Below are positions 27,881-31,953 of a stretch of DNA of 64,000 nt, piece by piece. Source of the DNA: Haloferax denitrificans ATCC 35960 (GTDB lineage: Archaea > Halobacteriota > Halobacteria > Halobacteriales > Haloferacaceae); NCBI RefSeq assembly GCF_000337795.1, contig NZ_AOLP01000012.1:62001-126000 (forward strand). The letters run 5' to 3'. A program made the position numbers and the translations under genes. The first letter of the stretch is position 1, and each line of letters begins with the position of its first letter. The notes below the pieces were generated by a model, which was not told the origin of the DNA, searched no databases, and saw only the letters and a list, made by a program, of their open reading frames with translations.

Positions 27881-27894
27881 TTAGGCATACCTAA
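27881..27894. promoter_or_regulatory. DtxR/IdeR-like palindrome TTAGGCATACCTAA
   Basis: Five-base arms TTAGG/CCTAA are perfect and the next pair is C/A, spaced as in the DtxR-family operators of haloarchaea and actinobacteria (TTAGG..CCTAA). It lies in a 262-base gap, 93 bases upstream of the 83-residue gene on the minus strand and upstream of a hairpin-rich segment on the plus strand. The regulated transcript is not clear. Confidence 0.55.
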
Positions 27895-28943: not shown

Positions 28944-28957
28944 TTAGACTCGTCTAA
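28944..28957. promoter_or_regulatory. Palindrome TTAGACTCGTCTAA upstream of the metal importer
   Basis: Perfect six-base arms TTAGAC/GTCTAA with a two-base centre, close in form to DtxR-family (SirR, MntR, IdeR) operators. It is 23 bases upstream of the TATA-containing inverted repeat in front of the ABC importer. A metal-responsive repressor or activator site is inferred. Confidence 0.55.
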
Positions 28958-28971
28958 TTTGAACCTTAGAG

Positions 28972-28994
28972 CAACACATCTATATAATGTGTTG
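28972..28994 (+). promoter_or_regulatory. TATA box embedded in a perfect inverted repeat (znuA-like promoter)
   Basis: CAACACAT (28972-28979) and ATGTGTTG (28987-28994) are exact inverted copies around CTATATA. The TATA element is centred 26 bases before 29010, close to the two possible ATG codons at 29007 and 29013, so the transcript is probably leaderless. A protein bound to the repeat would block TBP access: an operator of the repressor type. Confidence 0.65.
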
Positions 28995-29006: not shown

Positions 29007-30119
29007 ATGGTAATGAACGCGAATCCAGATTCGTCCGTCCCCAAACTCTCTCGGCGGTCGGTCGTCGCGGCCGGTTCCGGTCTGTTGACGGCCGGGCTCG
29101 CCGGTTGTCTCGGCGGTGGCGGCGGAGCGGGAGGCGGAACCGACGGCTCGAACACCGGCTCGAACGACGCCTCCGGCGGGTCCGAGTCGGAAGACGGCCC
29201 CGTCGTGGTCGCCTCGTTCTTCAGTTTCTACGACTTCGCGCGGGAGGTCGCGGCCGACACCCCGGTGACGCTGAAGAACCTCATCCCGACCGGGCTTCAC
29301 GGTCACGGCTGGGAACCGGACGCGAGCGTCACGCGCGACATCATCGAGGCCGACGCGTTCGTCCACGTCGGAAAGGACTTCCAGCCGTGGGCCGACCGCG
29401 CCATCCAGACGCTGAAGGACGACGGCGTGGACACCCAACTCATCAACGTCCGCGAGGGCGTCGAACTCGTGGAACTCGCCGCGAGCCTCGACCGCGACGA
29501 GGAGGGCGTCGGCCAGGGCCGTGGGAAGGACCCCCACTTCTGGCTCGACCCGCGGCGCGCCAAGACCGCCGTCGACAACATCACCGAGGGGCTGGTCGAA
29601 CTCGCACCCGAGCACGAGGAGACGTTCCGCGACAACGCCGACGCGTACAAGACCGACGTGCTCGACCGCATCGACCGGGACTATCAGGACATCTTCGACC
29701 GGGCGTCGCGCAAGGTCGTCCAGTTGGCGGCCCACAACGCCTTCCAGTACATCGGCGTCCGCTACGGCGTCGAGATGCGCCCGCTCGTCGTCAACCTCGC
29801 CGCCAGCGGCGACGTGAAGCCCTCGGACATCACCGAGGCCAAGCGCGTCATCGAGGACAACGACATCCGATACATCGGCGCGGGCGTCTTCGAGACGCGC
29901 CGCCCCGCGAAACAGCTCATCGCCGAGACGCCCGTCGAGGCGTACTTCCCCGTCACCCCGTACGCGGGCGTCCGCGAGGACTGGGTGGAAAACGACTGGG
30001 GCTACGAGGAAATCGCCGACAACATCAACATGCCGACGTTCGAGGTCGTCCTCGGCAACAAGTCGCCCGAGGAAGTCGGCTACGACGGCTGGGCCGACGA
30101 GTGGAGGAACTTCGAATGA
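29007..30119 (+). CDS. znuA: Metal (Zn/Mn) ABC transporter substrate-binding lipoprotein
   Basis: A cluster A-I metal-binding lipoprotein of about 370 residues. The N-terminus has SRRSVVAAGSGLLTAGLAGC, a twin-arginine signal with lipobox LAGC, then a Gly-rich linker. Family motifs include HGHGWEPDASVTRDI (His ligands), FVHVGKDFQPWA, GKDPHFWLDPRRA and AHNAFQYIGVRYGVE. The expected extended His-rich loop of zinc-specific ZnuA is absent; the DPHFWLDP region is compact, so manganese rather than zinc is possible. ATG at 29013 is an equally good start given the TATA position. Its TGA overlaps the ATPase start. Confidence 0.9.
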   Translation: MVMNANPDSSVPKLSRRSVVAAGSGLLTAGLAGCLGGGGGAGGGTDGSNTGSNDASGGSESEDGPVVVASFFSFYDFAREVAADTPVTLKNLIPTGLHGHGWEPDASVTRDIIEADAFVHVGKDFQPWADRAIQTLKDDGVDTQLINVREGVELVELAASLDRDEEGVGQGRGKDPHFWLDPRRAKTAVDNITEGLVELAPEHEETFRDNADAYKTDVLDRIDRDYQDIFDRASRKVVQLAAHNAFQYIGVRYGVEMRPLVVNLAASGDVKPSDITEAKRVIEDNDIRYIGAGVFETRRPAKQLIAETPVEAYFPVTPYAGVREDWVENDWGYEEIADNINMPTFEVVLGNKSPEEVGYDGWADEWRNFE

Positions 30120-30958
30120 GCGCCCTCCGCAACGGTGAATCCGCGGAGTCAGCTGAGTCCGCCGACACCGGTGTCGCCGACGCCGACGACGCCGATGGCC
30201 GCGGCTCGTCCGGCCCGCTCGTCGAACTCGCGGACGTCGAGTTCGGCTACACCGCGACGCCCGTCGTGGAGGACATCTCGCTCCGCATCGACCCCGGCGA
30301 GTACGTCGCCATCGTCGGGCCGAACGGCTCCGGCAAGTCGACGCTGATGAAGCTCATCCTCGGCTTGCTCCGTCCCGACGAGGGGTCTGCGCGGCTGTTC
30401 GGCGAGCCCTCCCACGCCTTCGACGACGGGGCGCGCATCGGCTACGTCGCCCAGCACGCCAGCGCCTCCAAGGAGATGCCCATCACCGTCCGCGAGGTCG
30501 TGAGGATGGGTCGGTTCCCCCACGTCGGCTTCGGCCGGCTCTCCGCCGAGGACCACCGCATCGTCGACGAGGCGCTCGCCACGGTCGGGATGTCCGAGTT
30601 CGCCGACCGCCGGGTGACGAAGCTCTCGGGCGGCCAGCGCCAGCGCGCCTTCATCGCCCGCGCGCTCGCCGGCGAGGCCGACCTGCTCGTCTTGGACGAG
30701 CCGACCGTCGGCGTCGACGCCGAGTCGGTCGACGCCTTCTACGACCTGCTCGAAGCGCTCAACGACGAGGGCATCACGGTTCTCCTCATCGAACACGACC
30801 TCGGTGCGGTCACCGACCACGCCCGGCGCGTCGTCTGTCTCAACCGCGAGGTCTACTTCGACGGCCCGACCGACGAGTTCGTCGAGAGCGACGCGCTCGC
30901 GCGGGCGTTCGGCACGGCGGCCTCCTTCGCGGGCGGTTCGGGCGGTGGCCGCGCGTGA
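30116..30958 (+). CDS. znuC: Metal (Zn/Mn) ABC transporter ATPase
   Basis: A 280-residue ATPase of the zinc/manganese importer family. Walker A is GPNGSGKST, the Q-loop YVAQHASASKEMPITVREVV is typical of Znu/Mnt ATPases, the signature is LSGGQRQRAFIARALA, and Walker B LLVLDEPTVGVD with the H-loop LIEHDLG. The first 35 residues are acidic and variable. The ATG (30116) overlaps the stop of the binding protein (ATGA), and its own TGA overlaps the permease start, so the three genes form a tight operon. Confidence 0.93.
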   Translation: MSALRNGESAESAESADTGVADADDADGRGSSGPLVELADVEFGYTATPVVEDISLRIDPGEYVAIVGPNGSGKSTLMKLILGLLRPDEGSARLFGEPSHAFDDGARIGYVAQHASASKEMPITVREVVRMGRFPHVGFGRLSAEDHRIVDEALATVGMSEFADRRVTKLSGGQRQRAFIARALAGEADLLVLDEPTVGVDAESVDAFYDLLEALNDEGITVLLIEHDLGAVTDHARRVVCLNREVYFDGPTDEFVESDALARAFGTAASFAGGSGGGRA

Positions 30959-31953
30959 TGGCCATCGAACTGTTCGCCGCGTTGCAGGCGGGGCCGTTAG
31001 ACGCCGTCCTCGCGCCGGTCTACTGGCTCCTCGCGCTGTGGTCCGACCTGCTTTTCGCCGTCGGCGACGCGACCGGCCTCGGCTTCCTCGACTACCGGTT
31101 CATGCATCGAGCCATCCTCGTCGGCCTCTGTATCGGCGTGATGGCCCCCCTCATCGGGACGTTCCTCGTCCACCGCCAGCTCGCGCTCATCGGCGACGCG
31201 CTCGCCCACACCGCCTTCGCCGGGGTCGCCGTCGGCCTCTTTCTCAACGGCGTGTTCAGCCTCGGCGTCTCGCCGTACCTGACCGCCGTCGTCGTCGCCG
31301 TCATCGCGGCGCTCCTCATCGAACTCATCTCCGAGGCGACCGACGCCTACAACGACGTGTCGATGGCAATCGTGCTCTCGACCGGGTTCGCGCTGGGGAC
31401 CGTCCTCATCAGCCTCAACGCGGGCGGCCTCGCGGTCGGCATCAACCAGTATCTCTTCGGCAACCTCTCGACCGTCTCGGCGGAGAACGCGGCCATCCTG
31501 CTCGTGCTGTTCGCCGTCATCGTCGGCACCGTCGCGCTCACGCGCAACCAACTGCTCTACGTGACGTTCGACGAGACGGCCGCCGCCGTCTCGGGCATCT
31601 CGGTCACGTGGTACAACCGCGTGATGGTCATGCTGACCGCGCTGGTCGTCGTCGGCGCGATGCAGATCATGGGCGTCATCCTCGTCGCCGCCATGCTCGT
31701 CGTCCCCGTCGCGGGCGCGGCGCAGGTCTCCCGAAGCTTCTCGGAGTCGCTTCTCGTCTCCGTCGTCCTCGCCGAACTCGCCGTGCTCCTCGGTATCGGC
31801 GCGTCCTACTACGGCGAGGCGACCGCGGGCGGTGTCATCGTCCTCGTCGCGGTCGGCATCTACGTCGTCGCCGTCGCTATCGGGAAGGTACAGGCGCGCG
31901 CCGGCGAGGACGCCGCCGCAGAACTGGGGAGCATCGACTCCCGCGAGGCGTAG
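30958..31953 (+). CDS. znuB: Metal (Zn/Mn) ABC transporter permease
   Basis: A 331-residue ABC-3 family permease with about eight hydrophobic segments. Family signatures include MHRAILVGLCIGVMAPLIGT, LVHRQLALIGDALAHTAFAG (the classic early motif) and GISVTWYNRVMVMLTALVVV. The C-terminal hydrophobic segments end with AVAIGKVQARAGED, and the last 20 residues are acidic. ATG at 30958 overlaps the ATPase stop (TGATG); a GTG one codon earlier is the only other option. It conducts the metal ion across the membrane for the ATPase and binding protein of this operon. Confidence 0.92.
   Translation: MAIELFAALQAGPLDAVLAPVYWLLALWSDLLFAVGDATGLGFLDYRFMHRAILVGLCIGVMAPLIGTFLVHRQLALIGDALAHTAFAGVAVGLFLNGVFSLGVSPYLTAVVVAVIAALLIELISEATDAYNDVSMAIVLSTGFALGTVLISLNAGGLAVGINQYLFGNLSTVSAENAAILLVLFAVIVGTVALTRNQLLYVTFDETAAAVSGISVTWYNRVMVMLTALVVVGAMQIMGVILVAAMLVVPVAGAAQVSRSFSESLLVSVVLAELAVLLGIGASYYGEATAGGVIVLVAVGIYVVAVAIGKVQARAGEDAAAELGSIDSREA

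Follow-up and report, generated by a model that had tools for sequence, protein, structure and literature searches.

An operon orthologous to the one studied here, zurM-zurA-ycdH, has been described in Halobacterium salinarum NRC-1 (Bonneau 2006, PMC1779511; Kaur 2006, via PMC3600143). The mRNAs of all three genes go up in a sirR deletion when manganese is present (PMC1779511; PMC3600143), and a review describes SirR as a Mn(II)-dependent autorepressor (PMC3600143). The sirR mRNA also correlates positively with those of zurM, zurA, and ycdH over 268 conditions, and a possible dual role has been raised (PMC1779511). As far as the available text of these accounts goes, neither the sequence of an operator nor a half-site or TATA-facing layout is described for Halobacterium SirR (PMC1779511, PMC3600143). 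Under denitrification, Haloferax mediterranei shows a joint rise of a SirR-type regulator and one of its two ZnuABC operons (PMC11218638).

The ortholog in Haloferax volcanii, znuA1C1B1, has a single transcription start site (TSS), 4 nt 5' of the znuA1 start codon, and lies in the gene order grx4, znuA1C1B1, HVO_2400, gcvP2 (PMC8155600). There, the second layer of control is a small RNA (s479) that acts on the znuC1 mRNA, not a second DNA-binding protein. That study is centred on control by the small RNA, and its main text does not use the words "DtxR" or "manganese" (PMC8155600).

Two other systems are relevant to the form of the operator. The 19-bp operator of IdeR and DtxR is made of five-base repeats, one per subunit; one dimer can take two CCTAA repeats, and four overlapping CCTAA repeats take two dimers (PMC8464063). 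SloR of Streptococcus mutans, a manganese-bound relative of DtxR, binds several palindromes cooperatively at sloABC and mntH and represses these manganese importers (PMC12096823).

The importer operon and its promoter

The window is a stretch of 64,000 nucleotides from a Haloferax genome (C12:62001-126000). It contains a three-gene metal ABC importer (29007-31953), and we discuss the following features:

28944-28957, no strand assigned: palindrome 1, TTAGACTCGTCTAA, the predicted site of one SirR dimer (from conservation in orthologs, rarity in the genome, and a copy in the sirR promoter)
28966-28970, + strand: half-site TTAGA, facing the TATA box, 22 bp after the first half-site (from conserved columns)
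28972-28994, no strand assigned: palindrome 2, CAACACAT-N7-ATGTGTTG (present; judged non-functional on arm pairing)
28980-28986, + strand: TATA box CTATATA; the BRE lies immediately upstream of it (from the fixed distance to palindrome 1)
29007-30119, + strand: binding protein, znuA1-like, PF01297 (domain match)
30116-30958, + strand: ABC ATPase, znuC1-like, PF00005 (domain match)
30958-31953, + strand: ABC-3 permease, znuB1-like, PF00950 (domain match)

A preliminary description, made from the letters of this stretch, had placed a metal ABC importer behind this promoter, and the three domain matches bear this out. The operon is the ortholog of H. volcanii znuA1C1B1 and of the Halobacterium operon that is reported to be repressed by SirR and manganese. 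Among named orthologs, the binding protein is closest to those of H. massiliensis and H. sulfurifontis (98%). The flanking genes are glutaredoxin-like upstream and, as named from their translations, glycine-cleavage-like downstream, and the gene order of H. volcanii matches this neighbourhood (PMC8155600).

The codon at 29007 is ATG in the window and ATA in six close relatives (L019-L024), so the ATG at 29013 is the likelier start codon of znuA1. Given this start codon and the position of the TSS in H. volcanii, the TSS in the window is likely to be at about 29009, which is 26 bp past the centre of the TATA box.

A conserved palindrome with a third half-site

Palindrome 1 has the form TTAGAnnnnTCTAA, with inverted TTAGR-like half-sites around a 4-nt centre, and its earlier description as DtxR-like is supported. 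None of 5000 dinucleotide shuffles of the surrounding 121 bp produced it. The 3.83-Mb genome holds three exact copies of the palindrome (and one of a control pattern): in the znuA1 promoter, at the beginning of a gene of the DtxR family (C19:384466), and on contig C2. The copy on C2 (C2:38931-38944, also seen at about 4932 of L011) is an exact TTAGAnnnnTCTAA in a replicon region that is Orc/Cdc6-like. We saw no metal gene close to this copy and rejected it as a second metal locus.

Across the orthologous upstream regions (the window and 58 other loci, with one 31% paralog left out), the palindrome is present in 59 of 59, exactly in 46 and with one mismatch in 13. When these regions are anchored on the palindrome, a third half-site, TTAGA, is found at a fixed spacing, which the preliminary description overlooked: columns +22 to +26 are T, T, A, G, and A in 56, 58, 37, 55, and 50 of the 59 regions. 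The A of the BRE is at +32 in 52 of the 59, and the TATA box corresponds to the T/A-rich columns +37 to +41. A strict search for the full element, with TTnGA as the half-site, gave 45 copies in only 38 of 195 Halobacteriales genomes, compared to 2 copies for the reversed control; a znuA1 ortholog is present in 53 genomes. The genes behind these elements are 28 znuA1 orthologs (including the window's), 8 members of PF11449, 6 Haloarcula leaders, and 1 sirR, with 2 elements unassigned.

The promoter of the binding-protein gene on pNRC200 of Halobacterium salinarum reads TTTGATACATCTAA-N8-TTAGA (one mismatch, with the half-site exact), and its product is 71.6% identical to the window's binding protein. 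From its place on pNRC200, we infer that this gene (VNG_RS11470) is ycdH (VNG6265G), in which case zurM-zurA-ycdH carries the same three-half-site element.

In Haloarcula-like genomes, the full SirR-type element precedes a conserved stretch (L124, L126, L146, L148, and L149; L123 and L159 are the same locus with the downstream part altered). At the beginning of this stretch, close to the expected TSS, is a hairpin, GCGUUCCGU...ACGGAACGC. The fold z-scores are −2.6, −3.2, and −0.7 in three genomes, there was no match in Rfam, and the stretch is possibly a metal-controlled small RNA or leader. Ahead of the importers of two genomes from one family (f6; L170 and L190), two palindrome-like TTAGA...TCTAA repeats flank a TATA-like region, one on each side.

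Palindrome 2 is not conserved

The preliminary description also noted that CAACACAT-CTATATA-ATGTGTTG encloses the TATA box, and suggested control by two regulators. The letters are as described, and the repeat is weakly unusual: a repeat with 8-bp arms arises in 1.15% of 2000 local shuffles. The window as a whole holds 8 perfect repeats with the arm and spacer length of palindrome 2 (mean of 3.6 in 12 shuffles) and 67 perfect repeats with spacers of 0-12 (47.8 in shuffles, sd 8.4). The arms pair at 8 of 8 positions in the window only. Of these 8 positions, 7 and 6 pair in the two nearest species, 1-4 in the nine remaining Haloferax, and on average 2.2 (maximum 6) in 72 further promoters, where about 2 is expected by chance. 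The alignment columns of the right arm hold just 0.03-0.5 bits. Because the pairing is lost even within Haloferax, we do not accept palindrome 2 as another operator, and it looks like an accident of one species with no role in regulation. As it is perfect in the window only, the suggestion of two regulators is not supported: conservation extends to a single element of three half-sites and the TATA box. A match to palindrome 2 at C2:40417 lies inside a gene of the Orc/Cdc6-like replicon region and was also rejected as a second metal locus.

The half-site faces the TATA box in most promoters

To compare layouts, we removed identical promoters and required a palindrome with 0-1 mismatch. The half-site on the TATA side has 0-1 mismatch in 80 of the 84 znuA1 promoters (68 are exact matches to TTNGA), and an exact NCTAA on the far side is found in none. 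Promoters of the PF11449 family come in two forms. Of 67 promoters, 21 have the palindrome over 100 bp ahead of the start codon, 45 have it 25-100 bp ahead, and 1 fits neither class. The 21 distant promoters have the znuA1 layout, with a right-hand half-site on the TATA side (0-1 mismatch) in 17 and on the far side in 0. In the 45 near promoters, the TATA box is upstream of the palindrome, and a left-hand NCTAA is found on the TATA side in 39 (0-1 mismatch; 32 exact) and on the far side in 4. The distance between the centres of the palindrome and the TATA box is 32.5 bp if the palindrome is upstream and 32 bp if it is downstream (TATA columns −28 to −23), and in both cases the half-site sits about 15 bp away from the centre of the TATA box. 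We also considered that the half-site might be part of the BRE, but this was rejected because the mirrored copy is downstream of the TATA box in most PF11449 promoters.

That the half-site is on the TATA side in most promoters, and is mirrored when the operator is downstream of the TATA box, appears to be new here. We read the arrangement as a site that holds a first dimer strongly, plus a second, weaker contact, which would face the TATA box and the region of TFB and TBP. More speculatively, with somewhat less than even confidence, we suggest that the SirR operator is directional, that its half-site must face the TATA box at an equal distance on either side, and that SirR also represses PF11449, which in haloarchaea would be a metal-repressed Mn(II) importer rather than an exporter.

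The kind of operator is already known, and what is new among the literature that we surveyed is the half-site and the TATA-facing rule. The spacing of TTAGA-N4-TCTAA, as compared here, is that of one dimer of the IdeR/DtxR type (PMC8464063). The four overlapping CCTAA-type repeats of IdeR/DtxR are not found in the znuA1 promoter, which has three half-sites: the third repeat is 8 nt off and faces the TATA box, and the repeats are TCTAA instead of CCTAA (PMC8464063). SloR uses three full palindromes at a bacterial promoter, whereas the element before znuA1 has one palindrome and a half-site at an archaeal TATA promoter (PMC12096823). We found no title or abstract on the three-half-site geometry or on control of PF11449, in a survey that did not extend to Leyn and Rodionov 2015 or Martinez Pastor 2024. 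The former reportedly predicts metal regulons of DtxR proteins in archaea together with their palindromic motifs, and palindrome 1 may be among these already; the latter reportedly covers the TroR/SirR/Idr network of H. volcanii.

The PF11449 family

PF11449 is named "10TM heavy-metal exporter" in Pfam and "arsenic efflux protein" in NCBIfam. We examined 73 upstream regions of PF11449 genes (71 distinct genes; L226-L255, L257-L291, and 8 others) and found the palindrome with 0-1 mismatch in 69 of them (54 exact), compared to 1 of 73 for the reversed control. Most of these palindromes are inverted and downstream of the TATA box. An operator over the TSS implies repression by metal-loaded SirR, which would suit an importer, so the position of the operator hints that the haloarchaeal members of PF11449 are importers. 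Eight genomes (G097, G105, G085, G053, G069, G099, G005, and G034) have a SirR-type gene no more than about 3 kb from a PF11449 gene. The window's genome does not encode a PF11449 member.

We also considered whether ZnuA1 and PF11449 replace each other. Across 195 genomes, 11 have both, 42 have ZnuA1 only, 65 have PF11449 only, and 77 have neither (P = 0.0016, Fisher exact test; ZnuA1 was counted in 53 of 56 genomes, with three at about 41% identity set aside). However, the exclusion is weak: stratification by family gives an odds ratio of 0.36 (z = −2.3), and in two families (f7 and f17) most genomes with ZnuA1 have PF11449 too. The structure of PF11449 does not indicate the direction of transport, because the best match, ArsB, has Z = 12.3 (rmsd 4.5, 266 aligned), and about 13 is possible by chance for helical proteins. 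A sequence search found no solved relative of PF11449 (the only match was at E = 0.26).

The regulator is very probably SirR

The genome encodes three proteins with PF02742 (a protein search with SirR gives four matches, the fourth being a weaker relative). The regulator names TroR, SirR, and Idr are from PMC11349517, and the domain set that we used to call SirR is from PMC11218638. One of two published primers for HVO_0863 maps, with 1 mismatch, beside the gene for a 150-aa protein, which we therefore take as TroR; the second primer had no match in the stretch examined. By elimination, and from its domains (HTH, dimerisation, and FeoA), we take the 231-aa DtxR-family protein as SirR.

We compared the positions D8, H78, D101, E104, and H105 of SirR, which we take to be metal ligands from their roles in MntR and DtxR. 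All five are invariant in 30 of 30 orthologs; TroR retains E104 only, and Idr retains none. At the position of E11 in MntR, SirR has Lys in 30/30, unlike MntR of B. subtilis, and its score against the MntR family model is 214.5 bits, which is below the cut-off of 350.

Several observations connect this protein to palindrome 1. First of all, the exact palindrome at C19 is at the start of the 231-aa protein's own gene. Among the promoters of the 30 best-matching sirR orthologs, the palindrome lies between the TATA box and the ATG with 0-1 mismatch in 22 (16 exact), about 12.5 bp downstream of the TATA box; it has two mismatches in 2 others and is absent in 6. The sirR and znuA1 loci are apart in the window's genome, and elsewhere a SirR-type gene and a znuA gene are no more than about 3 kb apart in 13 genomes (G020, G083, G091, G055, G078, G004, G082, G108, G036, G025, G030, G037, and G048). 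The distance is at most 250 bp in the last five of these, and the linked gene is a 45% paralog in G004, G082, and G108. We read the palindrome at the importers of 11 of the 13 genomes (G055 and G078 were left out): it has 0-1 mismatch in G020, G083, G091, G004, G082, G108, G025, G030, G036, and G048 and two mismatches in G037. In G025, G030, G037, and G048, it is 22-30 bp before the assumed start and lacks the half-site. On pNVE500 of Natrinema versiforme, a DtxR gene is behind znuACB on the same strand. From this pattern of sites and gene neighbours, the regulator that acts at palindrome 1 is very probably SirR, an MntR-like protein of the DtxR family.

The joint rise of a SirR-type regulator and a ZnuABC operon in H. 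mediterranei is what a shared, self-repressed switch would predict; here, the identity of the operon is taken from locus-tag numbers. The copy of the importer on pHME505 of H. mediterranei has different locus-tag numbers from the operon that rises.

Manganese or zinc

The preliminary description stated that the binding protein lacks a long His loop, which is correct (the 60 residues that precede DPH include 1 His), and it left open whether the substrate is manganese, zinc, or both. The genome encodes a paralogous importer (C4:47271) that has a His-rich loop (6 His) and no palindrome. Among 119 haloarchaeal binding proteins (from loci with similarity to either importer, near-duplicates included), 95 have the palindrome without the loop, 0 have both, 20 have the loop only, 3 have neither, and 1 has no call. 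On a tree of 60 rows, each label needs two changes, so this split rests on few independent events.

In its three His, the binding protein resembles zinc-type proteins. H100, H177, and H243 are invariant in 20 of 20 binding proteins, and these are presumably the metal ligands of zinc-type binding proteins. Manganese-type binding proteins (PsaA/MntC) have Glu at the third ligand. The third ligand is His in 91 of 92 ZnuA1-type proteins, which is the same His as in YcdH/AdcA, and the Glu pattern is found in 0. The NCBIfam scores (90.7 bits for AztC, then 71.5 bits for MntC of Deinococcus) are both far below the cut-off. In the fold comparison, zinc and manganese proteins are intermixed: YfeA (Z = 30.2, rmsd 2.2, 271 aligned), MntC (29.8, 2.3, 271), Lmb (28.5, 1.9, 259), AztC (28.4, 2.4, 269), and AdcA (28.0, 2.9, 266).

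These comparisons narrow the choice of metal. The SirR-type site, the report from Halobacterium, and the His-loop paralog favour manganese as the regulatory signal, which we hold with moderate confidence. The transporter may nonetheless be specific for zinc or of mixed specificity, because the three invariant His are of the zinc type. An AT-rich inverted repeat, AATAATAAAA...TTATTATCT, precedes the gene for the Haloferax His-loop importer (znuA2 type; L162, about 1295-1340) and is conserved in three species (L162, L077, and L165); it is a candidate zinc operator.

A model for repression by SirR, and its alternatives

We propose, with good confidence, that 28944-28970 is an operator of SirR in Haloferax and that the importer is repressed by metal-loaded SirR, with Mn(II) as the likely metal. 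In this model, metal-loaded SirR would bind TTAGACTCGTCTAA as a dimer, and a second dimer, or one subunit, would be helped onto the TATA-facing TTAGA two helical turns off. SirR placed against the BRE and TATA box would keep TFB and TBP off, and znuA1C1B1 would thus be silent at high levels of the metal and expressed at low levels.

The most serious alternative, although an unlikely one, is that this is a zinc importer under zinc control, via SirR or another DtxR-family protein, and that the name znuA1 is right. The three invariant His, including the third one shared with YcdH/AdcA, point this way, as does the ranking of AztC over MntC, both far below the cut-off. However, the Halobacterium operon is reported to behave in a manganese-dependent way (PMC1779511, PMC3600143), and the genome encodes a separate importer that has a His loop and no SirR site. 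Also, the alignment shows SirR to be acidic where iron-type DtxR/IdeR carry Met and Cys, which we take to be metal ligands. It is a little less likely still that SirR is an activator or a dual regulator, activating at low manganese and repressing at high manganese from its site upstream of the BRE. An activator could use this site, which is upstream of the BRE and TATA box and not downstream as in the sirR promoter; the fixed distance to the TATA box suggests contact with TFB or TBP; and the positive correlation and possible dual role in Halobacterium fit (PMC1779511). In contrast, zurM, zurA, and ycdH rise in the sirR deletion with manganese (PMC1779511, PMC3600143), and most PF11449 promoters hold the inverted element past the TATA box and over the likely TSS, which is the position of a repressor.

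We consider it improbable that the site belongs to the iron network and is bound by one of its regulators, TroR or Idr. They belong to the same family, and the half-sites are one base apart (TTAGG vs. TTAGA), but the iron-type palindrome TTAGGnnnnCCTAA is a separate and commoner motif (25 places vs. 3, with 0 for a control), and TroR and Idr lack most of the canonical ligands. (The window has one copy of the iron-type palindrome, TTAGGCATACCTAA at 27881-27894, for which no target gene is apparent. A second iron-type copy with 0-1 mismatch is exactly 36 bp off at 7 loci; the loci named are the window, L013, L299, L300, L301, L303, L311, and L313.) Finally, the original proposal that a DtxR-family protein acts on palindrome 1 and a second repressor acts on the TATA-enclosing palindrome now seems very improbable. 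The perfect 8-bp arms around the TATA box are matched by few local shuffles, but the right arm is conserved in no other species, the pairing is at the level of chance outside Haloferax, and the one other place in the genome that fits palindrome 2 (with two mismatches) is inside the Orc/Cdc6-like gene.

Repression by SirR would thus replace a puzzle of two regulators with a single operator. It would tie an importer that is in print as "putative zinc", for its control by a small RNA in H. volcanii, to the manganese regulator of Halobacterium, and it would set apart two importers in one genome both by their regulation and by the loop. If PF11449 does belong to the SirR regulon, then the exporter annotation that this family has in many haloarchaea may be wrong. 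And should the TATA-facing rule prove general, the sequence of an archaeal promoter could reveal on which side a repressor acts.
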